48,754 nucleotides of DNA from Collimonas fungivorans (GTDB taxonomy: Bacteria > Pseudomonadota > Gammaproteobacteria > Burkholderiales > Burkholderiaceae_D): NCBI RefSeq assembly GCF_028292705.1, contig NZ_JAQGLV010000159.1, positions 1 to 48,754 on the forward strand, given 5' to 3'. A program made the translations under genes and the position numbers. Shown piece by piece: positions 17,999-37,219 of the stretch. The notes under the pieces are model-generated. The model saw only the letters and a list, made by a program, of their open reading frames with translations. It was not told the DNA's origin and searched no databases. The stretch's first letter is position 1. Each line of letters starts with the position of its first letter.

Positions 17999-19495
17999 TC
18001 AGGAATCTGCCCAGACCGTCGCCGCTGCAATCGCCCGCTGCCAGCCCTTGATGCTGGTTTTCACTTCATCCGCCGGCAGCGCCGGCTTGAAGCGCTGGTC
18101 GAGCTGCCACTGGCCGCGCACGTCGTCGGTGCTGCTCCAGTAGCCGACCGCCAGCCCAGCCAGGTAGGCCGCGCCCAGCGCCGTGGTTTCCGTCACTTTA
18201 GGACGCACCACGTCGACCCCAAGGATGTCTGACTGGAACTGCATCAGCAGGTTGTTGGCGGTAGCGCCGCCGTCGACCCGCAGTTCCGGGATCACGATGC
18301 CGGCGTCGGCTTCCATGGCTTTCAATACATCCATGGTTTGATAGGCGATGCTGTCCAGCGCCGCGCGCGCATAGTGCGCCGAGGTGGTGCCGCGGGTAAT
18401 GCCGAAGATGGTGCCGCGTGCGTGCGGGTTCCAGTGCGGCGCGCCGAGGCCGGCAAACGCAGGCACCAGGTAGACGCCGTCGCTGCTCTTGACGCTGCGC
18501 GCCAGCGCTTCGATTTCAGTCGAGGTCTTGATGATGCCAAGGCCGTCGCGCAGCCACTGCACCACGGCGCCGCCGATGAAGATGCTGCCTTCCAGCGCGT
18601 AGTTGACTTCATTGCCGATTTTCCAGGCGACCGTGGTCAGCAGGTTGTTCTTCGAAATGATCGGCTTGGTGCCGGTGTTCATCACCATGAAGCAGCCGGT
18701 GCCGTAGGTATTCTTGACCATGCCGGGCTCGGTGCACATCTGGCCGAACAGGGCTGCCTGCTGGTCGCCGGCAATCCCGGCCAGCGGGATTTCGGAACCG
18801 AAACCGGAGACTTCGGTGTGGCCGTAGACTTCGCTGGAAGAGCGGACTTCCGGCAGCATGCTGCGCGGCACGCCCATGATCTTGAGCAGTTCGTCATCCC
18901 ATTCCATGGTGTGGATATTGAACAGCATGGTGCGCGATGCGTTGGTGACATCGGTCAGGTGCAGCTTGCCGCGGGTCATGTTCCAGACCAGCCAGGTATC
19001 GATAGTACCGAACGCCAGGCGTCCCTGGTCCGCCAGCTGCTGCGCGCCTTCGACGTTGTTCAGGATCCAGCGGATCTTAGTGCCGGAAAAATAAGAGTCG
19101 ACCAGCAAACCGGTCTTTTCACGGATGGTTTCGGCCAGGCCGTCGGCTTTCAGCTGGTCGCAGAATGCCGCCGTGCGGCGGTCTTGCCAGACGATGGCGT
19201 TGTACACCGCCTTGCCGGTTTCGCGATCCCAGACCACGGTGGTTTCACGCTGGTTGGTGATGCCGATGGCGGCGATCGAGGTGCCGTTCAGGCCGATGTT
19301 GGTCGAGGCCTCGGCGGCGACGCCAACCTGGGTCGACCAGATTTCCTGCGGATCGTGCTCGACCCAGCCCGGCTGCGGATAGATCTGGCGGAATTCTTTC
19401 TGCGCTGAAGAAACGATATTGCCTTGACGGTCAAACAGGATGGCGCGCGAGCTTGTGGTCCCCTGATCCAGGGCTAAAATGTATTTGTCTTTCAA
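17999..19495 (-). CDS. glpK: Glycerol kinase
   Basis: [57 protein letters not shown] kinase signatures. Confidence 0.97.
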
Positions 19496-19609
19496 CTTGT
19501 CTACTCCAAGGTTGGTGAATCCGCCTGCGCGGACCGGGCGACTTTGATCCGGCGGTGAAACCGGGTCCGTCTTTTTATCTTCCGGCGCAATTGCCCGCCG
19601 GGTAAAACT

Positions 19610-21145
19610 TCAGGCCAGCATGGCTGCCGGCGCCGATACTTGCTGCGCCTCCAGCCAGGCCTGCAAACGCGCGACGCCGGCGGCGTCGAAACGCAATCCC
19701 AGCTTGGAACGGCGCCACAGGATATCGTCGGCGGTCAATGCCCATTCGTAGCGCATCAGATAGCGTACTTCCGCCTCATGCAGGTCAGCGCCGAACAGCT
19801 CGCCCAGCCCGGCCATGTCGTGAATGCCATCCAGCAGGCGCGCCGCGCGCGTGCCGTAAGTGCGTGCATAACGCGCCGCCAGGCTGGCCGACAGCCAGGT
19901 ATGGCGCTGCTGGAAAATGCGCTGGAAATCGGCGAAGTCGGCATTGGCGATATCGCCGCCCGGCAGCGCTTCGTGCGCGGTCCAGTGCGATTTCATGTAA
20001 CCGAACAGCGGCTGCAGATGCTCCATGGCTTCTTCCGCCAGGCGCCGGTAAGTGGTGATCTTGCCGCCGAATACCGACAGCACCGGCGCCAGTCCTTGCT
20101 CGTTGCGTAATTCCAGACGGTAGTCGCGGGTCACCGCGGAAGGATTGGCGACTTCTTCCTCCAGCAGCGGCCGCACGCCGGCATACGACCAGACCACTTG
20201 CTGCGGCGTCACCGCGGTTTCGAAATAGCGGCTCACCGATTCGCACAGGTAGGCGGTTTCTTCATCCGAGATCTCGACCTTGCCTGGATTGCCGCTGTAT
20301 TCGACATCGGTGGTGCCGATCAGGGTAAAGTCGGTTTCATACGGAATCGCAAACACGATGCGCTTGTCCGGATTCTGGAAGATATAGGCGTGATCGTGGT
20401 CGAACAGGCGTTTGGTGACGATATGGCTGCCTTTGACCAGGCGGATGTGGTGCTGCGCCGGTGTATTCAAGGCGCTGTTCAGCAGGCTGGCGACCCACGG
20501 CCCGGCAGCGTTGACCACGCAGCGCGCCTTGATCTTGGTAGTCTCGCCGCTCACGGTCGACAGCAGGGTGGCGTCCCAGTATTGCGTGCCTTGCCTGGCT
20601 TCGATCAGGCGGGTCTTGGTGAGGATGGTGGCGCCGCGTTCCTTGGCGTCCATCGCATTGAGCACCACCAGGCGCGCATCCTGCACCGAGGCGTCGGAAT
20701 ACACGAAACCTTTGCTCAAGGTCTTTTTCAGCGGCGCGCCGGCCGGATGCTTGCGGAAATCGATGGAGCGCGACCCTGGCAGCAATTCGCGTTTGCTCAA
20801 GTTGTCGTATAAAAACAAACCCGCGCGTATCATCCAGGCCGGCCGCAGGCTCGATACATGCGGCATCACGAAGCGCAGCGGCGCAATGATATGCGGCGCC
20901 AGGCGCAGCAGCAGTTCGCGCTCTTGCAGCGCTTTGCGCACCAGGCCGAATTCGTAGTGTTCGAGATAGCGCAAGCCGCCGTGTATCAGCTTGGTGCTGG
21001 CCGATGAAGTGTGTGAAGCAAGGTCATCCTGTTCGCAAAGCAACACGCTCAGTCCGCGCCCGGCAGCGTCGCGCGCAATCCCGGCGCCGTTGACGCCGCC
21101 GCCCACCACCAGCAAATCTACAATTTCACTTGATGCCACAGCCAT
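19610..21145 (-). CDS. glpD: Glycerol-3-phosphate dehydrogenase (FAD, aerobic)
   Basis: VDLLVVGGGVNGAGIARDAAGRGLSVLLCEQDDLASHTSSASTKLIHGGLRYLEHYEF. Confidence 0.96.
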   Translation of the reverse strand: MAVASSEIVDLLVVGGGVNGAGIARDAAGRGLSVLLCEQDDLASHTSSASTKLIHGGLRYLEHYEFGLVRKALQERELLLRLAPHIIAPLRFVMPHVSSLRPAWMIRAGLFLYDNLSKRELLPGSRSIDFRKHPAGAPLKKTLSKGFVYSDASVQDARLVVLNAMDAKERGATILTKTRLIEARQGTQYWDATLLSTVSGETTKIKARCVVNAAGPWVASLLNSALNTPAQHHIRLVKGSHIVTKRLFDHDHAYIFQNPDKRIVFAIPYETDFTLIGTTDVEYSGNPGKVEISDEETAYLCESVSRYFETAVTPQQVVWSYAGVRPLLEEEVANPSAVTRDYRLELRNEQGLAPVLSVFGGKITTYRRLAEEAMEHLQPLFGYMKSHWTAHEALPGGDIANADFADFQRIFQQRHTWLSASLAARYARTYGTRAARLLDGIHDMAGLGELFGADLHEAEVRYLMRYEWALTADDILWRRSKLGLRFDAAGVARLQAWLEAQQVSAPAAMLA

Positions 21146-21247
21146 CTCCTTGTGTCGGCAACTTGCTCATCGGACAAGCCCGCTAGTACCGCACGCAAGC
21201 TTGTAATGTCACCGCACATCATAAAATATTTATATTCGAAAGTATAT

Positions 21248-21263
21248 TGTTCGAATTCGAACA
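21248..21263. promoter_or_regulatory. Putative GlpR operator upstream of glpD
   Basis: TGTTCGAATTCGAACA, perfect 16-bp palindrome with TTCG-N4-CGAA spacing as in the E. coli GlpR consensus; lies in the AT-rich glpR-glpD gap. Confidence 0.65.
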
Positions 21264-21395
21264 TTGATAATCGTTTATATTTATTAAAAGCAATTATTCG
21301 ATAGGAATAAACTTAATTGTGGATAGATAAGCACTATCCACAGGTTCACGGCCAAGGGGAGATTGCAGCGCACGAACGGCGCCGCGGGATTATTG

Positions 21396-22193
21396 CTAGG
21401 CTGCCGATGCGCTGTCGTCGGCGACGAATATATCGATTTTCGCTTCTTCGAAAATGCCGGCCATGGCTTCCGGCACCGGCTTGTCGGTAAACAGCGCATT
21501 GATTTTCGAAATGTCGCCGAGCCGCACCAGCGCCGGCCGCCAGAACTTCGAGTGGTCAGCCACCAGGAATACAGTGCGCGAATGCTCGATGATCGCTTCC
21601 GACACCCGCACCTCGCGATAGTCGAAATCGCGCAAAGTACCGTCGGCTTCGATGCTGGAGATGCCGATGATGCCGAAATCGACCTTGAAGCGGCGGATGA
21701 AATCGATGGTTTCTTCGCCGGTGATGCCGAGGTCGCGCGCGCGCACCACGCCGCCGGTGATGATCACCTCGCAGCCTGGATAACCGCTCATGATGGCGGC
21801 CACGTTCAGGTTGTTGGTGATGACGCGCAGGTTGCGGCGCCGGCTCAGCGCCTTGGCGACTTCCTCGTTGGTGGTGCCGAGATTGATGAACAGCGTGGCC
21901 TGGTCGGGAATATGCTCGACCACCAGCGCGGCGATGCGGCGCTTCTCCTCGGAATACAAACCTTGCCGGGCGCCGTAAGCGATATTCTCGGCGCTGGAAG
22001 GCAGGCCGACGCCGCCATGATAGCGCTGCAGCAGGTTCAGCTCCGCCAGCAGGTTGATGTCGCGCCGTATCGTCTGCTGGGTGATCTTGAAACGCGTCGC
22101 CAGATGTTCTACCGTCACAAACCCGTCACGTTGCACATAACTCAACAGCTCCTGCTGGCGACTGTTAAGCTTTAGCGTTGATATCTCTGGCAT
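21396..22193 (-). CDS. glpR: DeoR-family transcriptional repressor of glycerol metabolism
   Basis: MPEISTLKLNSRQQELLSYVQRDGFVTVEHLATRFKITQQTIRRDINLLAELNLLQRYHGG; upstream of glpDKF on the same strand. Confidence 0.88.
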   Translation of the reverse strand: MPEISTLKLNSRQQELLSYVQRDGFVTVEHLATRFKITQQTIRRDINLLAELNLLQRYHGGVGLPSSAENIAYGARQGLYSEEKRRIAALVVEHIPDQATLFINLGTTNEEVAKALSRRRNLRVITNNLNVAAIMSGYPGCEVIITGGVVRARDLGITGEETIDFIRRFKVDFGIIGISSIEADGTLRDFDYREVRVSEAIIEHSRTVFLVADHSKFWRPALVRLGDISKINALFTDKPVPEAMAGIFEEAKIDIFVADDSASAA

Positions 22194-22291
22194 GAACCCT
22201 GTCCTGTGCGGATTTTTCAAAGGCTTTTATTATGATGGGATTTGCGCCGCATGGGGAGAATGCAAATCGCATTTTGTCGCACGGCCCCGGC

Positions 22292-22313
22292 AAAATGGTA
22301 ACGGTATCATTTT
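22292..22313. promoter_or_regulatory. Putative LacI/GntR-type operator upstream of the LacI-family gene (autoregulation)
   Basis: aaaATGGTAACGGTATCATttt palindrome 20 bp before the start codon; 18/21 identical to the operator copies at 23441-23492. Confidence 0.7.
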
Positions 22314-22332
22314 ATAATGTTAGAATTTCAGC

Positions 22333-23406
22333 ATGGAAAAAGAATCCTTGATGAATGCGGTCGTCGCCGACGTCACCGCGCGCCGCAAAGGCGGTCGTAA
22401 AACCGGCGGCTTCACCCTGCGCGACGTCGCCAAACTGGCGGGCGTCGCCCCCATTACCGCGTCGCGCGCGCTGAATACGCCGGACGCCGTCTCCGCCAAG
22501 GTTTTGCAAAAAGTACAGGCCGCCGTGCTGCAGACCGGCTATGTGCCGAACCTGCTGGCCGGCGCGCTGGCGTCGCAGAAAAGCCGCCTGGTGGCGGCCG
22601 TGGTGCCGACCCTGTCCGGCCCGATGTTCCTGGAAACCGTGGAAGCGCTGACCGACACCCTGGCCGGCGCCGGCTACCAGGTGATGCTGGGCCAGAGCGG
22701 TTATGAAAATTCGCGCGAAGACGCCCTGCTCGACGCCATCATCGGCCGCCGCCCGGACGGCATCGTGCTGACCGGCATCACCCGTTCGCCGCAGGCGCGC
22801 CGGCGCTTGCTGGCGAGCGGCATCCCGGTGGTGGAAACCTGGGACCTGACGCCGACCCCGGTCGACATGCTGGTCGGTTTCTCCCATGAAAAGATCGGCG
22901 CCGCAGTCGCGCAATACCTACACGGCAAAGGCAAAAAGCGGGTAGCCGCCATCAGCGGCGACGATGAACGCAGCCGGCGCCGCGCCGCGGCGTTTTCCGA
23001 GGCTGCGGTCCGGCTCGGCATGGCGCGGCCGCAGGAAACCGATGTGCCGGCCTGCCTGGTGACGGCGCCCACCACGCTTGGCAACGGCCGCAGCGGACTG
23101 CGGGAATTATTGCTGCGTGCGCCCGATATCGATGCCGTGTTTTGCAGCTCCGACCTGCTGGCCCTAGGCGTGATGATAGAGGCCCAAGCCAGCGGCATCG
23201 CCATCCCCAGCCAGCTGGCCGTGATCGGCCTGGGCGACCTCAGCTTTTCGCGCGACCTGCATCCGCCGCTGACCACGGTCCGCATCGACGGCACCGCCAT
23301 CGGCAGCACCGCAGCGCGTTTCATCATCGACCGCTCCGAAGGCAAAAGCGTGGCCGAACCGATCTGCGATCTCGGCTTCACCATCATAGAGCGCGCCAGC
23401 GTTTAA
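22333..23406 (+). CDS. LacI/GalR-family transcriptional regulator (GntR-like)
   Basis: [58 protein letters not shown]/hinge plus periplasmic-binding-like domain. Confidence 0.93.
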
Positions 23407-23430: not shown

Positions 23431-23492
23431 TTGACAGCCCAAAATGGGACCGCTACCATTTGCTCGAACACGATTTGGTAGCGGTCCCATTT
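23431..23492 (+). promoter_or_regulatory. Putative promoter with paired inverted LacI-type operators ahead of the sugar-acid gene set
   Basis: TTGACA (23431-23436), 17-bp spacer, TACCAT (23454-23459); perfect 17-bp inverted repeat aaatgggaccgctacca (23442-23458) / tggtagcggtcccattt (23476-23492). Confidence 0.7.
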
Positions 23493-23546: not shown

Positions 23547-24902
23547 ATGACAGATTCGAACACTAGCCTTCCCGTTCCAGGCACTCCTCATATCGTCGAC
23601 ATGCGCGTAGTGCCGGTGGCCGGCCGCGACAGCATGCTGCTCAACCTGAGCGGCGCGCATGGTCCCTATTTCACGCGCAACATCGTGATCCTCAGCGACA
23701 GCGCCGGCAATACCGGCGTGGGCGAAGTACCGGGCGGCGAACGCATCCGGCAGACGCTGGAAGATGCGCGCCCGCTGCTGCTGGGGAAATCCATAGGCAG
23801 CTACCAGGCCATCCTCAACAGCGCGCGCACGGCGTTCGGCGACCGCGACGCCGGCGGCCGCGGCCTGCAAACCTTCGACCTGCGCATCGCGATCCATGCG
23901 GTGACGGCGCTCGAGGCCGCCTTGCTTGACCTGCTGGGAAAATTCCTCGGCGTGCCGGTAGCGGCATTGCTGGGCGAAGGCCAGCAGCGCGATGCGGTGA
24001 AAATGCTCGGTTACCTGTTCTACGTCGGCGACCGCAACGCCACCGACCTGCCCTACGCCAGCGCGCCGGACGCCGCCGACGACTGGCTGCGGCTGCGCCA
24101 TGAACCGGCCCTGAACGCACAGGCAGTGGTGGCGCTGGCCGAAGCCGCGTACCAACGCTACGGCTTCAACGATTTCAAACTGAAGGGCGGCGTGCTGCGC
24201 GGCGAAGATGAAATCGAAGCGGTGACGGCGCTGGCCGAACGTTTCCCGGCGGCCCGCATCACGCTCGATCCGAACGGCGGCTGGCTGCTCAAGGATGCCA
24301 TCCGCCTGTGCCGCGACCAGCACACGGTGCTGGCCTATGCCGAAGATCCTTGCGGCGCCGAGGACGGCTTTTCGGGACGCGAAGTAATGGCGGAATTCCG
24401 CCGCGCCACCGGTTTGCAGACCGCCACCAACATGATCGCAACCGACTGGCGCGAGATGGGCCATGCGATCCAGCTGCAATCGGTGGACATCCCGCTGGCC
24501 GATCCGCACTTCTGGACCATGCAGGGTTCGGTGCGGGTGGCGCAGATGTGCCGCGAATGGGGGCTGACCTGGGGTTCGCATTCCAACAACCACTTCGATA
24601 TCTCGCTGGCGATGTTCACCCACGTCGCCGCCGCGGCGCCGGGCGACATCACCGCCATCGACACGCACTGGATCTGGCAAGACGGCCAGCGCCTGACCAA
24701 AGAGCCGTTGCGGATCGCCGGCGGCATGGTTGAAGTGCCGAAAAAACCGGGCCTTGGCATCGAGCTCGACCTGGTGGAACTGGAAGCGGCGCATCAGCTC
24801 TACCGCGGCATGGGGCTGGGTGCGCGCGACGACGCCGTGGCCATGCAATACCTGATCCCCGGCTGGAAATTCGACAACAAGAAGCCTTGCCTGCTGCGCT
24901 AA
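23547..24902 (+). CDS. gudD: Glucarate dehydratase (enolase superfamily)
   Basis: [100 protein letters not shown]. Confidence 0.88.
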
Positions 24903-24921
24903 AGTCCCCGACGAGCGCCCA

Positions 24922-25875
24922 ATGAAAACACTCCTGCTCTCGCCGGAAATCAGCCTCGGCAACGACGGCTGGCAATTGACGCTGTCGCCTTCCGCCGGCG
25001 GCCGCGTCACTTCTCTCAGCTCGTCGCAAGACGGCCATGCGATCAACTGGATCGTCCCCATGCCGGAACACTGCCGCCGCCACGGCTTCCAGGCCAGCGC
25101 CTGGCCCAAGGCCGGCATCTACCCGCTGCTGCCGTTCTCCAACCGCATCCGCGGCGGCGCATTTTCCTGGGCGGGCCTGGACATCAGCCTGCCGCTGCAC
25201 CCGGGAGAAGCGCACGCCATGCATGGCTTTGGCCACCGCGCCGAGTGGCAACTGCTGGATTGCGACGGCAGCAGCGCCGCCATGCTGTATGTCCATGCCG
25301 CCAGCGACAGCGGCTGGCCCTGGCGCTTCCAGGCAAAACAGACGATAAGCCTGGCGGCCGGCGCGCTCACGATGAAGATGGAGGTCACCAACACCAGCGA
25401 TGCGGCGCTTCCTCCCATGCCGCTCGGCGCAGGTTTCCACCCGTATTTCCCGCGGCGCTTTGCCAGCCAGGTTTCCTTTGCTGCGCGACAGCTATGGCAA
25501 GCCGATGCCGGACATGTCGCCACCGGCGTCGGCGACGTCCCTCTGCAGCAAGACTACGGCAGCCCGCGCGGCATCACGCAAGAGGAAGAACTGACGCTGT
25601 ACTACGGCGGCTGGAACCGGCGCGCCACGATCGGCGACGGCCGCCAGCACCAGATCGCGATCTCCGCCTCGCCCGTGCTGTCGCACCTGGTGCTGCACGC
25701 GCCCAAGGCAGGCGACTACTTCTGCATCGAGCCGGTGACCCATGTCGCCAACGCAGTCAACCTGGCGCAGTCCGGCTTCAGCAATACCGGCTTGCAGACC
25801 TTGTCTCCGGGCCACACGTTCAGCTGCGATCTGCGGATGGATTTTTCCGGTCCGGGGATTCCGGAATCCCCGTAG
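24922..25875 (+). CDS. Aldose 1-epimerase family protein
   Basis: IYPLLPFSNRIRGGAFSWAGLDISLPLHPGEAHAMHGFGHRAEWQL...MPLGAGFHPYFP: galactose mutarotase-like fold motifs. Confidence 0.88.
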   Translation: MKTLLLSPEISLGNDGWQLTLSPSAGGRVTSLSSSQDGHAINWIVPMPEHCRRHGFQASAWPKAGIYPLLPFSNRIRGGAFSWAGLDISLPLHPGEAHAMHGFGHRAEWQLLDCDGSSAAMLYVHAASDSGWPWRFQAKQTISLAAGALTMKMEVTNTSDAALPPMPLGAGFHPYFPRRFASQVSFAARQLWQADAGHVATGVGDVPLQQDYGSPRGITQEEELTLYYGGWNRRATIGDGRQHQIAISASPVLSHLVLHAPKAGDYFCIEPVTHVANAVNLAQSGFSNTGLQTLSPGHTFSCDLRMDFSGPGIPESP

Positions 25876-25936
25876 CGCCCGGCTGGCGCTTAGTCACACA
25901 TCAATCACACAAATAAAAACTAACCGAGACAAAACA

Positions 25937-27208
25937 ATGAAACGCATCAAAGGTCTGCGCTGGTGGATTATTGCCCTCGTATGTTTTGGCACCATACTTA
26001 ACTACATCTCACGCAACTCGCTGGGCGTGCTGGCGGATACGCTGAAACACGACCTGGCGTTCAGCACCAAGGAATATTCGTACGTGGTGGCGGCTTTCCA
26101 GGTGGCTTACACCATCATGCAGCCGGTATGCGGCTACATCATCGATTTTCTCGGCTTGAAAGTGGGCTTTGCGCTGTTTGCCGCCGCCTGGTCGGTGGTC
26201 GGCATGCTGCACGGTTTTGCCACCGGCTGGATATCGCTGGCGTTTTTTCGCGGCCTGCTCGGCCTGACCGAAGCCGTCGCGATTCCTGCCGGAGTAAAAG
26301 CAGTATCGGAATGGTTTCCCAAACAGGAACGCTCGGTGGCCGTGGGTTACTTCAACGCCGGCACCTCGATGGGCGCGGTGATCGCACCGGTGCTGGTGGC
26401 TTGGCTGCTGTACAAACACGGCTGGCAATCGGCATTTATCGCGACCGGCGCGCTGGGTTTCATCTTTGCCGGCTTGTGGTTCTTCTTTTACCGCGCCCCT
26501 AAGGACCATCCCAACCTGTCCGATACGGAACGCGCTTATATCCTCTCCGGCCAGGAAAGCATTGCCGAAAGTCAGGCCCACGCCAAGCCGTCGGTGCGGG
26601 CGATCGTCAGCACGCGCCGCTTCTGGGGGATCGCCATCACCCGCTTCCTGGCAGAACCAGCCTGGCAAACCTTCAATTTCTGGATTCCGCTGTACTTTAT
26701 TTCGGTGCGCGGCATGAACCTGAAAGAATTCGCCATCTTCGGCTGGATGCCGTTCTTCGCCGCCGACATGGGCGGCATCCTGGGCGGTTACCTGTCGCCG
26801 TTCCTGATGAAGCATTTCAAATTCAAGCTGGTCAGCTCGCGCATCGCCGGCATCGCCACCGGCGCGCTGCTGATGACCAGCGTCGGTTTTGTCGGTTACG
26901 TGGAAAGTCCCTACGTGGCGATCGCCCTGTTTTGCATAGGCGGCTTTTCTCATCAGATGATTTCCGGCCTGGTCAACACCATGACCACCGACGTCTTCAA
27001 CACCCGCGAAGTCGGCACGGCCAACGGCCTGACCGGCATGATCAGCTGGATCGGCGGACTCTCGTTCTCACTGCTGATCGGGCAGCTGGCAGAAACTATC
27101 GGCTATACCCCGCTGTTCGCCGCGCTAGGCATGTTTGACGTGGTGGGCGTGACGATCCTGTTCCTGCTGTATCGCGGCTACAAAGACAGCAGCGTTGCCG
27201 GCAACTGA
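25937..27208 (+). CDS. MFS transporter, ExuT-like hexuronate/sugar-acid:H+ symporter family
   Basis: MKRIKGLRWWIIALVCFGTILNYISRNSLGVLADTL...AIPAGVKAVSEWFPKQERSVAVGYFNAGTSMGAVIAPVLVAWL; close to the ExuT/anion:cation symporter signature. Confidence 0.9.
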   Translation: MKRIKGLRWWIIALVCFGTILNYISRNSLGVLADTLKHDLAFSTKEYSYVVAAFQVAYTIMQPVCGYIIDFLGLKVGFALFAAAWSVVGMLHGFATGWISLAFFRGLLGLTEAVAIPAGVKAVSEWFPKQERSVAVGYFNAGTSMGAVIAPVLVAWLLYKHGWQSAFIATGALGFIFAGLWFFFYRAPKDHPNLSDTERAYILSGQESIAESQAHAKPSVRAIVSTRRFWGIAITRFLAEPAWQTFNFWIPLYFISVRGMNLKEFAIFGWMPFFAADMGGILGGYLSPFLMKHFKFKLVSSRIAGIATGALLMTSVGFVGYVESPYVAIALFCIGGFSHQMISGLVNTMTTDVFNTREVGTANGLTGMISWIGGLSFSLLIGQLAETIGYTPLFAALGMFDVVGVTILFLLYRGYKDSSVAGN

Positions 27209-27228
27209 ACCAGAAACTGGAGATTCTC

Positions 27229-29643
27229 ATGTCAGTCAAACAAATACCCGAGTTTCACCTCGCCGCTCGCAAGGGCGCCATGCTGACGCTCAAAGGATCC
27301 GGCGGCCAGGCCGCCCACATCTTCGTGCTGGAACAAGACATCATCCGCGTCATGGTGCTGCCCGACGCCAGCCTGCGCTTCCCGCGCACCTGGGCGATTG
27401 CGCCGGGCGACCTGCAGCTGCCGCTGGCCGGACGCGACCGCTTCTCGCTGGCAGGGTTCGCGCAGCCGGCCTACACCGCAGAAGAACATGGCGGCGCCCT
27501 GCAGATCGAGACCGGGAAAATCCGGCTGACGGTGCAGCTCAAGGGCCTGTCCTGCAGCTGGAAAACCTGCAAGGACGGCGTCTGGCAAAACGCCGCACAG
27601 GACCGCGCCACGCAACATGTCAATTTCGGCTACTGGGACGACAAGGTCTATCACTACCTCAAGCGCGACGCCGGCGATGAAATGTATTTCGGCCTCGGCG
27701 AACGCAGCGGCGACACCAACCGCCACGGCCGCAGCTATTCCCTGAAAACCATCGACGCGATGGGCTATAACGCCAGCAGCACGGACGCCTTGTACAAGCA
27801 CATCCCGTTCTACCTGACCTGGAACAAGCGGCAAAAAACCGCCTTCGGCCTGTTCTACGACACGCTGTCGGAAGGCAAGCTGGACATGGGTTGCGAGCTG
27901 GACAACTACCACGGCCACTACCGCTATTTCGTCGCCGACCATGGCGACCTGGATTATTACTTCATCGCCGGCGACGACATGGAGCAGGTGGTGCGGCGCT
28001 ATACCTGGATGACCGGCCAGCCGGCGTTCACACCGAAATGGGGCCTGGGTTATTCCGGTTCTACCATGACGTATACCGATGCGCCGAACGCCCAGGAAAA
28101 GATGAATGAATTCCTGGAAAACTGCGAGCAGCACGACATGCTGTGCGAATCGTTCCACCTGTCGTCCGGCTATACCTCGATCGGCGACAAACGGTACGTC
28201 TTCAACTGGAACCGCGAGAAATTCCCCGATCCCCGGGAATTTGCACAACACTACCTGAAGCATGGCGTGCGCCTGTGCGCCAACATCAAGCCTTGCCTGC
28301 TGCAGGACCATCCGTGTTTTGCCGAAGCACGCGATCTTGGCCTGTTCATCAACGACCAGGACGGCGAGCCGGAGCTGGTGCAGTTCTGGGATGAAATCGG
28401 CGCCTACCTGGATTTCACCAATCCCGACACCATCGACTGGTGGAAGCAGGCGGTGACCAGTTCCCTGCTGGAATACGGCATCACCAGCACCTGGAACGAC
28501 AACAACGAATTCCAGGTGCTCAATCCGCAAGCCACCGTCAACGGCTTCGGCAAGCCGTTCAAAGCGGTCGAAGCCAAGGGCTTGCAAACCTTGCTGATGA
28601 TGGCCGCTTCGCAGGAAGCGCAAACCGCCTTCGCGCCGCAACAGCGGCCCTACCTGGTTTCGCGTTCCGGCGCGGCCGGCATGCAGCGCTATGTGCAGAC
28701 CTGGTCCGGTGACAATCACACTTCATGGCAGACGCTCAAGTACAACATCAAGATGGGCATCGGCCTGGCTTTGTCCGGCATCTCCAACACCGGCCATGAT
28801 GTGGGCGGCTTCAGCGGTCCGGCGCCAGGCCCGGAGCTGTTGCTGCGTTGGGTCCAGTTCGGCATTTTCATGCCGCGCTTTTCGATCCACTCGTGGAACG
28901 ACGACAGGACCGTCAACGAAGCCTGGATGTATCCGGAAATCACCGGCGCCATCCGCAACCTGCTCAAGCTGCGCGCCCGCCTGACGCCGTATTTCTACGA
29001 TCTGCTGTGGCGCTACCATCAGCACTACGAACCGATGATCAAGCCGACCTTCCTGGCGTTTCCCGACGATCCGCAATGCTTCGCGGAAAACGACGACATG
29101 CTGGTCGGCCCCAGCCTGCTGCTGGCTGCCGTGGTAGAACCGGGCCAGCACAGCCGCGCCGTATATCTTCCGGCAGGCGCAGACTGGTACGATTTCTGGA
29201 GCGGCGCGCATCATCATGGCGGACAGGAAATTGTACTGCCCGCCATCGGCGACCGGCCGCCGCTGCTGGCCAGGGCCGGCAGCTCCATCGCCGTCAATGT
29301 CGCCGAACAGCATTTCAACCGGCCCGCGCACCAGCAAGGTTTCATGGTCTTTCCGCACCAGGCCGACGGCAGTTTCGCCGCCGAATTTTTCGACGATGAC
29401 GGCGCCAGCCATGCCTACAAGAACGGCCGGAGCAGCCTGTGGAAAATCCATGTGCAGAGCCAGGCAACCGCCCTGGAAATCACGGTCGGATGCAGCGGCG
29501 TGCAGCCGGCGTCCGACGTCGTGGTCCTGCTCCTGCCGCAGCACGAAACCCGCCGGCTGGCGGCAGATGCCATCGTCATCAGCGACGCCATCGTCGATGG
29601 CTATCGTGAAGTCCAGATAAAAATCACCAAGCCCAAGTTCTAA
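27229..29643 (+). CDS. Glycoside hydrolase family 31 (alpha-glucosidase/alpha-xylosidase-like), no evident signal peptide
   Basis: YFGLGERSGDTNRHGRSYSLKTIDAMGYN; GH31 nucleophile region STWNDNNEF; WSGDNHTSWQTLKYNIKMGIGLALSGISNTGHDVGGFSG. Confidence 0.92.
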   Translation: MSVKQIPEFHLAARKGAMLTLKGSGGQAAHIFVLEQDIIRVMVLPDASLRFPRTWAIAPGDLQLPLAGRDRFSLAGFAQPAYTAEEHGGALQIETGKIRLTVQLKGLSCSWKTCKDGVWQNAAQDRATQHVNFGYWDDKVYHYLKRDAGDEMYFGLGERSGDTNRHGRSYSLKTIDAMGYNASSTDALYKHIPFYLTWNKRQKTAFGLFYDTLSEGKLDMGCELDNYHGHYRYFVADHGDLDYYFIAGDDMEQVVRRYTWMTGQPAFTPKWGLGYSGSTMTYTDAPNAQEKMNEFLENCEQHDMLCESFHLSSGYTSIGDKRYVFNWNREKFPDPREFAQHYLKHGVRLCANIKPCLLQDHPCFAEARDLGLFINDQDGEPELVQFWDEIGAYLDFTNPDTIDWWKQAVTSSLLEYGITSTWNDNNEFQVLNPQATVNGFGKPFKAVEAKGLQTLLMMAASQEAQTAFAPQQRPYLVSRSGAAGMQRYVQTWSGDNHTSWQTLKYNIKMGIGLALSGISNTGHDVGGFSGPAPGPELLLRWVQFGIFMPRFSIHSWNDDRTVNEAWMYPEITGAIRNLLKLRARLTPYFYDLLWRYHQHYEPMIKPTFLAFPDDPQCFAENDDMLVGPSLLLAAVVEPGQHSRAVYLPAGADWYDFWSGAHHHGGQEIVLPAIGDRPPLLARAGSSIAVNVAEQHFNRPAHQQGFMVFPHQADGSFAAEFFDDDGASHAYKNGRSSLWKIHVQSQATALEITVGCSGVQPASDVVVLLLPQHETRRLAADAIVISDAIVDGYREVQIKITKPKF

Positions 29644-29671
29644 CGCAGTCCAATAACTATACGGGAGACAC

Positions 29672-30853
29672 ATGAAACACAAAACACTGGCGCTGCTGAC
29701 AGCAGCCGCCTCGCTGGCCGGCGCGAGCCAAGTCCGGGCGCAAAACGGCGTCACCATCTATGGCACCGCCGACGCTGCGATCATCTACTCCAGCAGCCAG
29801 CGCGGTCACGCCAACACCTATATGAACAGCGGCAACCTGAATGCCAGCAAACTGGGTTTCAGCGGCAGCGAGGACCTGGGCGGCGGCAGCAAAGCCATCT
29901 TCACGCTGGAGCAGGGATTCAACATCGACAACGGCGCCCAAAGCGATCCCAGCAAGGCGTTCAACCGCCAGTCCTTTATCGGATTGAGCAACAGCGGCTA
30001 CGGCACATTCACGCTCGGGCGCCAGTACACGCCGTATTGGCGTTACGTCGGCGGGCTGGGACCGACCGGCGTGCTGACAGGCGCCACCGGCGCCCATCCA
30101 GGCGACCTGGACGGCCTCGACACGACGATACGCATCAACAATTCCCTGGTCTATGCGACACCGGTGATAGCCGGTTTCCAGGGCAGCGCCTTGTACGGTT
30201 TCGGCGAAAATGCCGGCGCCATGGGATCCGGCAATACCGTGAGCGCGGCGCTGCTCTACAACATCAACGCGTTTAGCGTCGCACTGGGATACCTGAAGCT
30301 GACCAACAACAATCTGAAAGGTTTTGCGCCCTGGGATCCGAACGTCACGTCAGGCAGCTATGCCCAGTCTCCCGTCAACGCCGGTTATGCCTCCGCCAAG
30401 TCGGTGCAGATGATCGCCGCGGCCGCGCGGTACCAGGCATCGGGCAAGCTGATGCTGGGCCTGAATTTTTCCAATGTCCAGATGGCGCCCGGAGCGGATT
30501 CCTTGTTTACCCACCAGGCCAGTTTCAACACGGCAGGCCTGATTTCAAGCTACAAACTGACGCCGGCCATCACGGTCGCAGCCGGCTACAGCTATACGCG
30601 CGAAACGGCCGCCAACGGCATAAGCAACCCGGCCCGCTATCAGCAGCTGTCCCTGGAGCAGACCTACGATTTTTCTAAACGCACCGCGCTCTACTTCCTG
30701 GAAACCTATCAAAAGGCGTACGGCCAGACCTTGGGCAAAGATGGGGTGACAGCGGTCGACGCCGTCGCGGTGGTCGGCGATTCGCAAAATGGCACGCCGT
30801 CTTCCAACGGCAAGCAGTTTGTCGCGGCAGTCGGCATCCGCCATCAGTTTTAA
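29672..30853 (+). CDS. Gram-negative porin (OmpC/Burkholderia-type, 16-strand)
   Basis: Signal peptide MKHKTLALLTAAASLAGASQVRAQNGVTIYGTADAAI...; C-terminal ...FVAAVGIRHQF ending in aromatic Phe. Confidence 0.92.
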   Translation: MKHKTLALLTAAASLAGASQVRAQNGVTIYGTADAAIIYSSSQRGHANTYMNSGNLNASKLGFSGSEDLGGGSKAIFTLEQGFNIDNGAQSDPSKAFNRQSFIGLSNSGYGTFTLGRQYTPYWRYVGGLGPTGVLTGATGAHPGDLDGLDTTIRINNSLVYATPVIAGFQGSALYGFGENAGAMGSGNTVSAALLYNINAFSVALGYLKLTNNNLKGFAPWDPNVTSGSYAQSPVNAGYASAKSVQMIAAAARYQASGKLMLGLNFSNVQMAPGADSLFTHQASFNTAGLISSYKLTPAITVAAGYSYTRETAANGISNPARYQQLSLEQTYDFSKRTALYFLETYQKAYGQTLGKDGVTAVDAVAVVGDSQNGTPSSNGKQFVAAVGIRHQF

Positions 30854-30884: not shown

Positions 30885-32120
30885 TCAGGCCAGCGCCTGG
30901 TCCAGCAGTTCTATCCAGTGCCTGACCGGGGTCTGCGTGCCTGACTGCAGATGGGTCAGGCAGCCGATATTGGCGGAGACGATCATGTCCGGCTGGGTCG
31001 CCTGCAGGCTGTTCAGCTTGTTGTCGCGCAGGCGATACGACAGTTCCGGCTGCAATACGGAATAAGTGCCGGCCGAACCGCAGCACAAATGACTGTCGGC
31101 GCACAGCTGCACATCGACGCCGACGCTGCGCAACAGGCCTTCCACCTTGCCGCGGATCTGCTGGCCGTGCTGCAAGGTGCAGGGCGGATGGTAAGCCACG
31201 CGCTGGGGAAATTTACCCCGCAATTTTTCCTGCAGCTCCGCTTCGAACGCCGGCAAGATTTCGCTCAGGTCCTTGGTCAGCGCTGAAATGGCCTTGGCCT
31301 TGACGGCATAAAGCGGATCGGCTGCCAGCAGATGGCCGTATTCCTTGACCGTGACGCCGCAGCCGGAGGCAGTCATGACGATCGCCTCGACGCCCTGTCC
31401 ATTGCTGCCGATCACATACGGCCACCAGGCGTCGATATTGCGCCGCATGTCGTCCAGGCCGCCGGCCTGGTCGTTCAGGTGATAACGGATGGCGCCGCAG
31501 CAGCCGGCCTTGGGCGCCACCAGCAACTGCACTTCGAGCGCATCAAAAACCCGTGCCGCCGCGTGGTTGATATTGGGCGACATCGCGGGCTGTACGCAGC
31601 CATCCAGCAGCAGCATCTTGCGCGCATGCTCGCGGCGGGGGAAAATTCCCGCTTGCTGCTTTTCCGGAACCTTGTTTTTCAGTTTGCGCGGCAGCAGAGG
31701 CCGCAGCAATTGGCCAGCCGCCATGGCCGGCTTGAACAGCCAGGGGCGCGGCAAGAATTCTTTCAATAACTTGCGCGTCAGCTGCTGCGCGATGGGCCGC
31801 GGCACCTGGTCTTCCACCACCTTGCGGCCGATATCGAGCAGGCGGCCGTATTCGACCCCGGACGGACAGGTCGATTCGCAATTGCGGCAGGTCAGGCAGC
31901 GGTCCAGGTGGGACTGGGTCTTGACGGTGGCCTTGGTTCCTTCCAGCACCTGCTTGATCAGATAAATGCGGCCGCGCGGGCCATCCAGTTCATCGCCCAG
32001 CAGCTGATACGTCGGGCAGGTAGCTGTACAGAATCCGCAATGCACGCAGGCGCGCAGGATCGCATCGGCCTCCTTGCCTGCGCGTGTATTCTTGATGAAG
32101 TCGGCTAGATTGGTTTGCAT
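30885..32120 (-). CDS. glcF: Glycolate oxidase iron-sulfur subunit
   Basis: CVHCGFCTATCPTYQLLGDELDGPRGRIYLIKQVLEG...CLTCRNCESTCPSGVEYG; CCG motifs. Confidence 0.95.
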   Translation of the reverse strand: MQTNLADFIKNTRAGKEADAILRACVHCGFCTATCPTYQLLGDELDGPRGRIYLIKQVLEGTKATVKTQSHLDRCLTCRNCESTCPSGVEYGRLLDIGRKVVEDQVPRPIAQQLTRKLLKEFLPRPWLFKPAMAAGQLLRPLLPRKLKNKVPEKQQAGIFPRREHARKMLLLDGCVQPAMSPNINHAAARVFDALEVQLLVAPKAGCCGAIRYHLNDQAGGLDDMRRNIDAWWPYVIGSNGQGVEAIVMTASGCGVTVKEYGHLLAADPLYAVKAKAISALTKDLSEILPAFEAELQEKLRGKFPQRVAYHPPCTLQHGQQIRGKVEGLLRSVGVDVQLCADSHLCCGSAGTYSVLQPELSYRLRDNKLNSLQATQPDMIVSANIGCLTHLQSGTQTPVRHWIELLDQALA

Positions 32121-32153
32121 GGCTTGCTGGCTAGAGCTTGGTTAAGGTTCGGA

Positions 32154-33227
32154 CTAGAAATCCTGATACATGCGGCCGACATTAAAAATCGCCGCCGGAT
32201 CGAAACTGGCTTTCAAGCGCCGGTGAATCTGCGCCAGCGCCGGCGCCAGCGGATGAAATACGCCGGCATCTTTGTCACCTCCACGGTACAGGGTGGCATG
32301 GCCGCCGGCGGCGGCAGCCGCGCTCCGGATCGCCTGCGCGTCGGTGTCGGTGAACAGCCAGCGCTGCGCCCCGCCCCACTCGACCAGCGTGGCGCCGGGC
32401 AATGCCAGCGGCGCTGCGGTCGACGGCAGCGCCAGCCGCCACAAGGGTTTCTGTGCGGCCGCCAGTGCAAAAAAGGCGTGAGTCTGCTCACGCAGCGCCT
32501 GCCAGAAATCGTCCGCATCGGCGACCGCTTCACCACCAAGGTTCTTTTCGGCAGCGCTCACCGCGGCCTGCGCGCCGGACAGGCGCAGCGTCAGCTGGCC
32601 ATCTTGCCAGCAACTGGCGGAAATCGGCAAGGGCAAGCCGCCCCACTGGTTGAGGCTGCGTATCGCCTCGGCTTCGCCCATCGTAAACCGGCGACTGCTG
32701 CTGGCGAGTGGGCGCGGCAATACTTTCAGCGAAACTTCGAGAATCAAACCAAGGGTGCCAAGCGAGCCGGCCAGCAGACGCGATACATCGTATCCCGCCA
32801 CATTCTTCATGACCTGGCCGCCGAAATGCAGGATATCGCCTTTGCCGTCCATCAGCACCGCGCCCAGCACGAAGTCGCGCAATGCGCCGACCGCCTGCCG
32901 CGACGGGCCGGACAAGCCGCTGGCGACCATGCCGCCCAGCGTAGCGGCGCTGCCGAAATGCGGCGGTTCGAATGGCAGCATCTGGTTGTGCTGCGCCAGC
33001 AGCGTTTCGATTTCGGCCAGCGGCGTGCCGCAGCGCGCGGTAATCACCAGTTCGGTCGGCTCATAATCGATGACGCCGCTGTAACCGCGCGTATCCAGCA
33101 GTTCACCCTGCACCTGCTGGCCGTACCAGCGCTTGCTGCCGCCGCCGCGGATTTCCAGCTGCCGGCGCTCTGCCGCAGCAGCGAGAATCTGCCCCTTGGC
33201 CTGCTGCTTGAATAATTCTGGATCCAT
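32154..33227 (-). CDS. glcE: Glycolate oxidase FAD-binding subunit
   Basis: IRGGGSKRWYG...ATLGGMVASGLSGPSRQAVGALRDFVLGAVLMDGKGDILHFGGQVMKNVAGYDVSRLLAGSLGTLGLILEVSLKVLP. Confidence 0.94.
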   Translation of the reverse strand: MDPELFKQQAKGQILAAAAERRQLEIRGGGSKRWYGQQVQGELLDTRGYSGVIDYEPTELVITARCGTPLAEIETLLAQHNQMLPFEPPHFGSAATLGGMVASGLSGPSRQAVGALRDFVLGAVLMDGKGDILHFGGQVMKNVAGYDVSRLLAGSLGTLGLILEVSLKVLPRPLASSSRRFTMGEAEAIRSLNQWGGLPLPISASCWQDGQLTLRLSGAQAAVSAAEKNLGGEAVADADDFWQALREQTHAFFALAAAQKPLWRLALPSTAAPLALPGATLVEWGGAQRWLFTDTDAQAIRSAAAAAGGHATLYRGGDKDAGVFHPLAPALAQIHRRLKASFDPAAIFNVGRMYQDF

Positions 33228-33243
33228 ATTGTTCTGGTCTGCT

Positions 33244-34743
33244 CTAGAAGCGGGGGAGTTCCGCAAATTTCAGCTGGCCGCGCTGCACATGCATCTTGCC
33301 GTACTCGGCGCAACGCTGCAAAGTGGGAATCGCCTTGTCCGGGTTCAACAGGAATGCAGTATCGAAGGCGCGTTTGACATTAAAGAAAGCCTCGCGCTCC
33401 AGCGGTGAAAACTGCACGCACATCGAGTTGATCTTTTCGATGCCGACGCCGTGTTCGCCCGTGATAGTGCCGCCGACGGCAACGCACAGTTCAAGGATCT
33501 CGGCGCCGAACTCTTCCGCGCGATGGAATTCGCCCGGCACATTGGCATCGAACAGAATCAGCGGATGCAGGTTGCCGTCGCCGGCATGGAACACATTGGC
33601 GCAGCGCAGGCCGTATTTGTTTTCCATCTGTTCGATGCCCAGCAGCACCTGGGCCAGGTTCTTGCGCGGGATGGTGCCGTCCATGCAGTAATAATCGGGT
33701 GAAATGCGGCCGGCTGCCGGAAAGGCATTCTTGCGGCCAGACCAGAAACGCAGGCGCTCCGCCTCGGAGGTCGAGACTTCGATGCGGGTGGCGCCGCTGG
33801 CGTTGAGCACTGCGCTCATGCGGCCGATTTCTTCTTCCACCTCTTCTGCGGTGCCGTCCGATTCGCATAACAGGATGGCGGCGGCGTCGATATCGTAGCC
33901 GGCCTTGACGAAGGGTTCCACCATGCGCGAACTGGTGCGGTCCATCATCTCCAGGCCAGCCGGGATGATGCCGGCGGCGATCACGTTGGCGACCGCGTTG
34001 CCGCTCTTCACCACGTCGTCGAACGAAGCCATGATGACGCGCGCCGCCTGCGGTTTGGGAATCAACTTGACCGTGACCTCGGTGACCACACCCAGCATGC
34101 CTTCAGAGCCGATGAAAACCGCCAGCAAGTCGAGGCCGGGCGCATCCAGCGCAGCGTTGCCGAGTTCGACCACCTCGCCTTCAATGGTCACCATCCGCAC
34201 ACGCAATACGTTATGCACGGTAAGACCGTATTTCAGGCAGTGCACGCCGCCCGAATTCTCCGCCACGTTGCCGCCGATGGTGCAGGCGATCTGCGACGAC
34301 GGGTCCGGCGCGTAATACAGGCCATGCGCGGCCGCCGCTTCGGAAATGGCCAGGTTGCGCACGCCCGGCTGCACCACCGCAGTCCGTGCATACGGATCAA
34401 GCTTGACGATGCGGGTAAATTTGGCGGTGGACAAGACCACGCCGTCGGCGATCGGCATGGCGCCGCCGGACAGCCCGGTGCCTGCGCCGCGCGGCACGAT
34501 AGGCACTTTGAGATCGCGGCAAGCCTTGAGGATGGCCACCACCTGTTCCTCGTTCTCGGGCAGCGCCACTACCATCGGTGTCTGCCGATAGGCGGCCAGG
34601 CCATCGCATTCGTAGGGCCGGGTATCTTCGATATTGGATAACAGCGCGTGTGCCGGCAGCAGCGCCCGTAAAGCACTGACTACCTGCTGTTGGCGGGCCG
34701 GGCTAAAGGTGGACTCGGCGGGCGCTGCTGTTTCCGCGTTCAT
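33244..34743 (-). CDS. glcD: Glycolate oxidase FAD-linked subunit
   Basis: VPIVPRGAGTGLSGGAMPIADGVVLSTAKFTRIV...IGGNVAENSGGVHCLKYGLTVHNVL...GEHGVGIEKI. Confidence 0.96.
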   Translation of the reverse strand: MNAETAAPAESTFSPARQQQVVSALRALLPAHALLSNIEDTRPYECDGLAAYRQTPMVVALPENEEQVVAILKACRDLKVPIVPRGAGTGLSGGAMPIADGVVLSTAKFTRIVKLDPYARTAVVQPGVRNLAISEAAAAHGLYYAPDPSSQIACTIGGNVAENSGGVHCLKYGLTVHNVLRVRMVTIEGEVVELGNAALDAPGLDLLAVFIGSEGMLGVVTEVTVKLIPKPQAARVIMASFDDVVKSGNAVANVIAAGIIPAGLEMMDRTSSRMVEPFVKAGYDIDAAAILLCESDGTAEEVEEEIGRMSAVLNASGATRIEVSTSEAERLRFWSGRKNAFPAAGRISPDYYCMDGTIPRKNLAQVLLGIEQMENKYGLRCANVFHAGDGNLHPLILFDANVPGEFHRAEEFGAEILELCVAVGGTITGEHGVGIEKINSMCVQFSPLEREAFFNVKRAFDTAFLLNPDKAIPTLQRCAEYGKMHVQRGQLKFAELPRF

Positions 34744-34898
34744 TCTATTTTCCCATTGGCAGGCTGGCTATCGGAGGGTGTGTTTTCTGTTATCGAGTAT
34801 AACGATATTGTGTTTTTTACAGAACAACTTCCTCGGATATCCGCCTGAAAAGCTTGCGCCGCGCAGGTGAAATATTTTCAGGCGGCCGGCAATGCAGC

Positions 34899-35804
34899 TC
34901 AAATGCGGCTGAAAGTATCCTTCATCCATTCGATGAAAGTCGTCACTTCCGGCCGTTCCTGCGGTTTTTGCTGGTACACCAGGTAGTAGGCATGGGGCGG
35001 CGAAGTCAGGCTGATGTCGAACAGTTGCACCACTTCCCCTTGCGCAATCATTTGCTGTGCAAAATGCTTGCGGGTCAGGCCGACGCCATGGCCATGGCGC
35101 ACCAGTTCCAGCAACAGGCCGAGGTCGTCGGCGCGCAAGCCGGAGGACGGCTCGGGCCAGTCCAGGCCGGCCGCCTGGAACCATGGCTGCCAAGGCTCCA
35201 GGGCCGAACGCAGCAGGCTTGCCTTGCGCAGGTCGGCAGGCTGGTGCAGCGGACCGACTTTCTTCAGGTATGCGGGGCTGGCGACGGCAAAGGTAGGTTC
35301 TTCGAACAGTTTCTCGGTGGTGGTGTTGGGATACTTGCCGGCGCCGAAACGCACTTCCAGGTCGCTCTCGGTCAGACTCAGGTCGTAGAGCGGCACCGAC
35401 AGGAATATCTCGACCACGATCTCGGGGTGCCGGCTGGCAAACCCGTGCAGGTGCGGAATCAGCAGCTGGCGGGCAAAAGTCGGCGGCGCGGTGATCTTGA
35501 CGCGCGGCTGCACCTGGGCGTTACGCTGCGGCAGCGGGAACTCAGTCAAGGTGCGCAAGGCGCTGCGCACCACTTCCAGGTAACGGTGGCCGAATTCGGA
35601 CAAGGTGACCGTCCTGCCTTCGCGCGAGAACAGGCGCTCGCCGACGAAATCTTCCAGCAAACGGATGCGGTGCGACAGCGCCGACGGCGTAATGCACAGC
35701 TCGTCCGCCGCCAGTGCAAATGACCGATGGCGGGCGGCGGCTTCAAACGCGGACAAGGCATGCACAGGCGGCAGGCGATTGACCAATGGGGTCTTATTCG
35801 ACAT
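34899..35804 (-). CDS. LysR-family transcriptional regulator, GcvA-like
   Basis: LPPVHALSAFEAAARHRSFALAADELCITPSALSHRIRLLEDFVGERLFSREGRTVTLSEFGHRYLEVV. Confidence 0.92.
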   Translation of the reverse strand: MSNKTPLVNRLPPVHALSAFEAAARHRSFALAADELCITPSALSHRIRLLEDFVGERLFSREGRTVTLSEFGHRYLEVVRSALRTLTEFPLPQRNAQVQPRVKITAPPTFARQLLIPHLHGFASRHPEIVVEIFLSVPLYDLSLTESDLEVRFGAGKYPNTTTEKLFEEPTFAVASPAYLKKVGPLHQPADLRKASLLRSALEPWQPWFQAAGLDWPEPSSGLRADDLGLLLELVRHGHGVGLTRKHFAQQMIAQGEVVQLFDISLTSPPHAYYLVYQQKPQERPEVTTFIEWMKDTFSRI

Positions 35805-35809
35805 TGGAC

Positions 35810-37219
35810 TTACCACCGGATTATTTTCCCGGGATTCATGATGTTCTTCGGATCAAATGCATGTTTCAGCGCACGCATGGTGGCGATCGCTTCCACCCCA
35901 TGCTCTTCAATCAGGAAATCGATCTTGTGCAGGCCGACGCCATGCTCGCCGGTGCAAGTGCCGTCCATGCCGATGGCGCGGCTGACCATGCGCGCATTGA
36001 CGCCCTCGGCGCGCGCAATGTCGGCGGCATCGTCGGGATCGACCAGCATCTGCACATGGAAATTGCCGTCGCCGACATGGCCGATGATCGAATACACCAT
36101 GCCGTTGGCCTCGCAATCGGCCTTGGTCTCGAGGATGCATTCCGCCAGGCGCGAGATCGGCACGCAGCAATCGGTGGAAATCGCGCGGCTGCCGGGGCGC
36201 AATTGCAGCAAGGCGAAATAGGCGTTGTGACGCGCGGTCCATAAGCGCGAACGGTCTTCCGGCCGGGTCGCCCATTCGAAACCTACAGCGTGATGTTCAG
36301 CCACCACCGCCTGCACCAGCTCCGCCTGTTCCTTGACGCCATTCTCGCTGCCGTGGAATTCAAACAGCAGCAGCGGTTGTTCCGGCAGCGCCAGCTTGGA
36401 ATGCGCATTGATGGCGCGCACGCCGTTTTCATCCAGCAGCTCTACCCTGGCCACCGGCACGCCCAGCTGTATGGTCTGGATCACGGCGTTGACGGCGTCG
36501 GCGATGTTCTGGAACGAACAGACCGCGGCGGAAATGGCTTCCGGTTGCGGATAGAGCTTGACGGTCACTTCGGTGATCACGCCCAGCGTGCCTTCGCTGC
36601 CGACGAAGATGCGCGTCAGGTCGTAGCCTGCCGCCGATTTTTTGGCGCGGGTGCCGGTCTTGATGATGCGGCCGTCGGCGGTCACCACCGTCAGCGCCAG
36701 CGTGTTCTCGCGCATGCTGCCGTAGCGTACGGCGTTGGTGCCGGAAGCGCGGGTCGCCGCCATGCCGCCGATCGAGGCATCGGCGCCGGGATCGATGGGA
36801 AAGAACAGGCCGCTGTCCTTGATCTCGTGGTTCAGCTGCTTGCGGGTGACGCCGGTCTGCACCGTCGCCGTCAGGTCCTCGGCATGGATCGCCAGCAAGC
36901 GGTTCATGCGCGACAGGTCGATGGAAATCCCGCCTTGCAGCGCCAGCACATGGCCTTCCAGCGAAGTGCCGCTGCCGAAAGGAATCACCGGGACCACATA
37001 TTCGCTGCACAGCTTGACCAGCGCGGCCACCTCTTCGGTCGATTCGACGAATACCACGGCATCCGGCAGCATGGGGTCATACGAAGAGGCATCGCGGCCA
37101 TGATGTTCGCGCATCGCCACGGCGGTCGAGAAACGTTCGCCAAACAGGGCGCCGAGGGTGGCAAGCAAGGCGTCGGGCAACGGTTTCTTCAGGGCGGCGA
37201 GATCGGCTATGTGATTCAT
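35810..37219 (-). CDS. FAD-linked oxidase, D-lactate dehydrogenase (cytochrome)-like
   Basis: VVPVIPFGSGTSLEGHVLALQGGISIDLSRMNRLL...DPGADASIGGMAATRASGTNAVRYGSMRENTLALTVVTADG...GEHGVGLHKIDFL. Confidence 0.9.
   Translation of the reverse strand: MNHIADLAALKKPLPDALLATLGALFGERFSTAVAMREHHGRDASSYDPMLPDAVVFVESTEEVAALVKLCSEYVVPVIPFGSGTSLEGHVLALQGGISIDLSRMNRLLAIHAEDLTATVQTGVTRKQLNHEIKDSGLFFPIDPGADASIGGMAATRASGTNAVRYGSMRENTLALTVVTADGRIIKTGTRAKKSAAGYDLTRIFVGSEGTLGVITEVTVKLYPQPEAISAAVCSFQNIADAVNAVIQTIQLGVPVARVELLDENGVRAINAHSKLALPEQPLLLFEFHGSENGVKEQAELVQAVVAEHHAVGFEWATRPEDRSRLWTARHNAYFALLQLRPGSRAISTDCCVPISRLAECILETKADCEANGMVYSIIGHVGDGNFHVQMLVDPDDAADIARAEGVNARMVSRAIGMDGTCTGEHGVGLHKIDFLIEEHGVEAIATMRALKHAFDPKNIMNPGKIIRW

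Follow-up and report, generated by a model that had tools for sequence, protein, structure and literature searches.

A conserved pair of putative LacI-type operators at the predicted promoter of a probable glucarate operon in Collimonas fungivorans

The main text of the survey by Ravcheev et al. 2014 describes LacI-family operators as even palindromes with a central CG, gives autoregulation in 72%, and finds that about 20% of the regulated operons are preceded by two sites rather than one, with pair spacings that peak at 13, 22 and 32 bp and are read as cooperative (PMC4052901). In the same text, the sites of RafR and of ScrR of Burkholderiales are solely paired, 21–22 bp apart, and the gntKU pair overlaps at 13 bp (PMC4052901), whereas the two sites analysed here are 31 bp apart. 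That main text makes no mention of glucarate (PMC4052901), and our literature search found no direct description of a glucarate repressor of the LacI family.

Here we describe, in a window of 48,754 nt (the whole stretch of C. fungivorans DNA analysed), a perfect inverted repeat between a LacI-family regulator gene and five close genes on the same strand, 23547–30853. The arrangement fits the paired-site description in the main text of Ravcheev et al. and is ordinary in kind: as in the tandem operators described there, even palindromes centred on CG lie close to a promoter in pairs about two or three helix turns apart, with autoregulation predicted here as well. Unlike the peaks reported there, relatives of this regulator include a 26–27-bp class, which together with the predicted glucarate regulon adds to that description (PMC4052901). 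The system shares with lac the LacI-family fold and an operator over the promoter, but sites tens of base pairs apart would imply dimers lying side by side rather than lac's long loop, and the regulator, in which no sign of one was noticed, may lack a C-terminal tetramerisation segment. The gluconate–idonate repressors GntR and IdnR are among the closest named families and have a related operator sequence and a role in sugar-acid catabolism. However, the regulator scores below the curated cut-offs of both families (its best NCBIfam model, NF052440 GntR, gives 305 bits against a cut-off of 400; it also falls short of the IdnR cut-off), its proposed target is glucarate dehydratase, and a separate paralogue adjoins a gluconate kinase-like gene in this genome. 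The score against NF011563 is 137.6, below the cut-off of 433. The features of the locus are as follows.

22295–22310, unstranded: putative operator O3, ATGGTAACGGTATCAT, within the promoter spacer of the regulator gene itself, just upstream of TATAAT at 22313–22318
22333–23406, plus strand: proposed repressor, a GntR-like regulator of the LacI/GalR family, 357 aa (Pfam, NCBIfam and PDB matches)
23431–23436, plus strand: −35 element TTGACA, with at least 5/6 matches at a 16–18-nt spacer in 45/83 relatives
23442–23458, unstranded: inverted repeat, left arm, 17 bp
23444–23459, unstranded: putative operator O1, ATGGGACCGCTACCAT, centre 23451.5, overlapping the −10 hexamer (sequence; kept in the eight Collimonas loci and most relatives)
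23454–23459, plus strand: −10-like TACCAT at the right end of O1; TACCAT or TATCAT in 65/83 loci
23475–23490, unstranded: putative operator O2, TTGGTAGCGGTCCCAT, centre 23482.5 (sequence; conserved partner at 20–22, 26–27 or 29–31 bp)
23476–23492, unstranded: inverted repeat, right arm, 17 bp
23547–24902, plus strand: glucarate dehydratase, first gene of the proposed operon (TIGR03247, equivalog, 854 bits, above the cut-off of 828.7)
24922–25875, plus strand: aldose 1-epimerase-like (mutarotase-like) gene (PF01263)
25937–27208, plus strand: MFS sugar-acid transporter, galactonate/glucarate type (TIGR00893, 320 bits, below the cut-off of 395; start codon chosen by us)
27229–29643, plus strand: GH31 glycosidase (PF01055)
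29672–30853, plus strand: outer-membrane porin, last of the run (PF13609)

The two 17-nt arms pair at all 17 positions, as the earlier note had claimed, across a 17-nt loop, and no other perfect inverted repeat in the window has arms of 17 nt or more around a loop of up to 60 nt; in simulated sequences matched to the window's dinucleotide make-up, such repeats averaged 0.075 per window even with the arm threshold lowered to 14 nt. O1 and O2 are centred where that note had placed them, 31 bp or about three helix turns apart, in keeping with tandem operators (two sites about 22 or 32 bp apart serving one operon), and over 16-bp operator frames they match in mirror image at 15 positions. Each arm had been called an imperfect palindrome; internal symmetry reaches only 12/16 in O1 and 10/16 in O2. 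CG stands at the centre of O1, O2 and O3, in an even palindrome that is kept in relatives. Their sequence and conservation support the proposal that O1 and O2 are LacI-type operators, and the pair is in all likelihood functional.

The promoter reads as previously described, with TACCAT 17 nt after TTGACA and the upstream site lying over the −10. The −35 is the stronger evidence for a promoter, because the O1 consensus itself forces part of the conservation of TACCAT or TATCAT; against its recurrence in 45 of the 83 loci, the background rate of a match of at least 5/6 to TTGACA is 0.6% per position. From this geometry we infer a transcription start at about 23466, some 7 nt past the −10, so that O2 would be transcribed and O1 would not.

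The product of 22333–23406 carries the LacI helix–turn–helix domain PF00356 together with PF13377 (Peripla_BP_3)/PF00532, all above gathering scores, and matches the PDB entry 3h5o (E = 1.9e-58); its closest named relative is from Collimonas sp. OK412 (97%). Family and adjacency thus support the suggestion that this neighbouring gene encodes the likely regulator. A third site, O3, which the earlier note had missed, lies before the regulator gene and was found in all eight Collimonas loci, with one base altered in one of them; autoregulation through O3 is predicted. O3 falls within a short divergent region, 22220–22333, that separates the regulator from a GlpR-like DeoR-family gene upstream (21396–22220, minus strand), so that O3 might act on the glycerol regulator gene as well. 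The genome further encodes a GntR-like paralogue of the regulator (L007, 471–1516; contig C405, 2968–4010), divergent from a gene resembling gluconate kinase. The operator-like site just upstream of the paralogue, ATGGTAACGATGGCAT, resembles O3, so cross-binding between the paralogue and the operators in the window is possible.

Gaps of about 20–60 bp make it likely that the five genes downstream form a single operon. The closest solved structures to the GH31 glycosidase are α-glucosidases, and its scores lie under the named NCBIfam cut-offs; the enzyme may act on a glycoside to free the sugar acid or a precursor of it. The glucarate cluster is flanked on one side by glycerol genes (17999–22220, the glpR-like gene with presumed glpK-like and glpD-like genes) and on the other by presumed glycolate-oxidase-like genes (30885–37219, glcDEF-like).

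Regulator-linked promoters were compared across public genomes, giving 83 distinct loci with one or both sites. O1 and O2 occur together in 59 of these, often adjoining glucarate dehydratase; some relatives of the regulator have one site, or none detected. In all eight Collimonas loci O1, O2 and TTGACA are identical, but four genomes have the sites 31 bp apart and the other four 21–22 bp apart; given identical arms, about one helix turn has been gained or lost within the genus. At loci with regulator identities of 69% or more (Collimonas, Herbaspirillum and Noviherbaspirillum, with a few other relatives), all 27 pairs are spaced at 20–22 or 29–31 bp and none at 23–28 bp. By contrast, among the more divergent loci, largely of Variovorax and relatives but with Rubrivivax, Massilia and others represented, 22 of 32 pairs fall at 26 or 27 bp, or 2.5 turns, the commonest class there; Massilia and Pseudoduganella also include spacings of 25–26 bp. 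These are counts of loci and not of independent events, and on a quick regulator tree with many weak forks at least ten changes among the three spacing classes are required.

Whole-genome pattern scans allowing centre spacings of 15 to 45 bp, run on two families, recovered the same spacing classes. Across 394 genomes of the window's family, the two-site pattern matched 42 times, at 41 distinct places (one was read on both strands), 35 of them spaced at 29–31 bp; another family yielded 20 places, seven at 27 bp and five at 22 bp, a linked regulator of this type having been checked for part of the places in these scans. The reversed pattern, used as a control, had no match in either scan. In a Herbaspirillum-group genome, a pair with 31-bp spacing precedes an unlinked gene for a transporter of the family to which the window's own belongs, as would be expected of a pair that marks the regulon. 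Within the C. fungivorans genome, a search allowing up to two mismatches to the operator gave 92 matches, and the reversed control gave 69, which means that few further sites there can be real; of four one-mismatch matches inspected, one precedes the gluconate-type paralogue and three have no clear promoter-site assignment. In a Variovorax regulator subgroup (L049, L061, L069, L070, L074, L080, L082 and L086), one lone ATGACAGCGCTAACAT site precedes a different gene, apparently for a dihydroxy-acid-dehydratase-like enzyme, which would make this a diverged sub-regulon. In L093, a Collimonas relative, about 140 bp of extra DNA separates O2 from the start of glucarate dehydratase, which lies 290 bp from the regulator instead of the usual 144 bp or so.

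The paired arrangement is therefore old and widespread among Collimonas relatives, and ordinary for LacI-type regulators. A recent duplication, which had been suggested as one alternative for the repeat, is rejected: the pair is conserved across genera, being present also in Herbaspirillum, Noviherbaspirillum and more divergent Burkholderiales, with regulators 63–76% identical.

Taken together, these data make it very probable that the repeat is an operator pair for the presumably dimeric LacI/GntR-like regulator encoded upstream, which would repress the glucarate operon, probably cooperatively, and control its own synthesis. A regulator dimer on O1 would cover the −10 of the operon promoter, and a second dimer on O2, at about +9 to +24 relative to the predicted start, would stabilise the repressor on O1. 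With the sites about three turns apart and hence on the same face of the DNA, cooperative binding and tight repression are probable. The inducer would be a sugar acid, with glucarate, a related aldarate or an intermediate of the pathway as the likeliest candidates; once it had released the dimers, glucarate dehydratase, the mutarotase-like protein, the transporter, the GH31 glycosidase and the porin would be made, while regulator bound at O3 would restrain its own level.

It is the spacing statistics that point to cooperation between the dimers. The whole-turn classes in Collimonas and close genera, with the near-integral spacing here, support the in-phase cooperative binding that the earlier note had proposed, but the 26–27-bp class common in divergent relatives indicates that same-face geometry is not essential across the group, and to that extent the proposal is not universal. 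Binding to O1 and O2 without cooperation, either independently or with the gluconate-type paralogue as a second regulator, is unlikely: many relatives do manage with half-turn rather than in-phase spacing, and the paralogue's own site is like O3, yet spacings in Collimonas and Noviherbaspirillum differ by roughly a full turn and none lies in between. A broader reading, which we offer tentatively and think rather unlikely, starts from the 2.5-turn class, which places dimers on opposite faces and is nevertheless widely conserved: the regulator group would have three discrete pair geometries (about 2, 2.5 and 3 turns), and its mode of cooperative binding may have been switched, or cooperativity lost, in evolution, with mirrored changes homogenising the arms in some lineages. 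Such homogenisation, by template switching at a quasi-palindrome and not by selection on repressor binding, could by itself explain the exactness of the repeat. In Collimonas, both outer half-sites share a change (GGGACC/GGTCCC for GGTACC) that is absent from O3 and from the other pair-bearing loci, Variovorax has a second mirrored change (GGTAGCGCTATC/GATAGCGCTACC), and the process is documented in other systems (PMC8604942, PMC8794818). Against it, mirrored pairs are no commoner overall (the family scan gave 40 distinct pairs, of which 13 resemble the mirrored arrangement more closely, 16 the direct one and 11 neither), and a dyad-symmetric dimer pair, or coincidence, would look the same, which leaves this origin distinctly improbable. 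The unusually exact mirror duplication had rightly been singled out, as chance seldom gives perfect arms of 14 bp or longer, but the mirroring is not conserved; with no excess of mirrored over direct pairs, it is probably incidental, and we rejected the mirror image as a functional requirement.

The repeat could also act in RNA, either as an intrinsic terminator for the regulator gene or, in the leader of the operon, as an attenuator. It begins 36 bp past the regulator stop codon, and a read-through transcript spanning both arms folds at −36.9 kcal/mol (z −6.7). However, the start set by the conserved promoter lies inside the loop, so the predicted transcript holds one arm and cannot form the hairpin; its fold is not unusual (z +1.4). 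The repeat also differs from an intrinsic terminator, a GC-rich short-loop hairpin with a T run, in its 17-nt loop and in having just TTTA after the stem, and a scan limited to loops of 3–8 nt found no terminator-like site there. Relatives with a single site or with pairs in direct orientation also speak against a hairpin, and an Rfam search at the repeat gave sub-threshold chance matches and no family; one of these, to mir-373, scored 20.8 bits where the gathering score is 69 and is just a reflection of the hairpin. We therefore rejected an RNA element, which is very unlikely indeed, in favour of the operator pair.

Read as an operator pair, the repeat leads to the prediction, with exact sites, that Collimonas and its relatives control glucarate use through a LacI-family regulon. 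The operators are identical in the naturally occurring 21-bp and 31-bp versions, which amount to a ready spacing experiment, and the relatives at 26–27 bp would offer a test of whether helical phase matters; this natural series of 21, 26 and 31 bp is the best feature of the finding.
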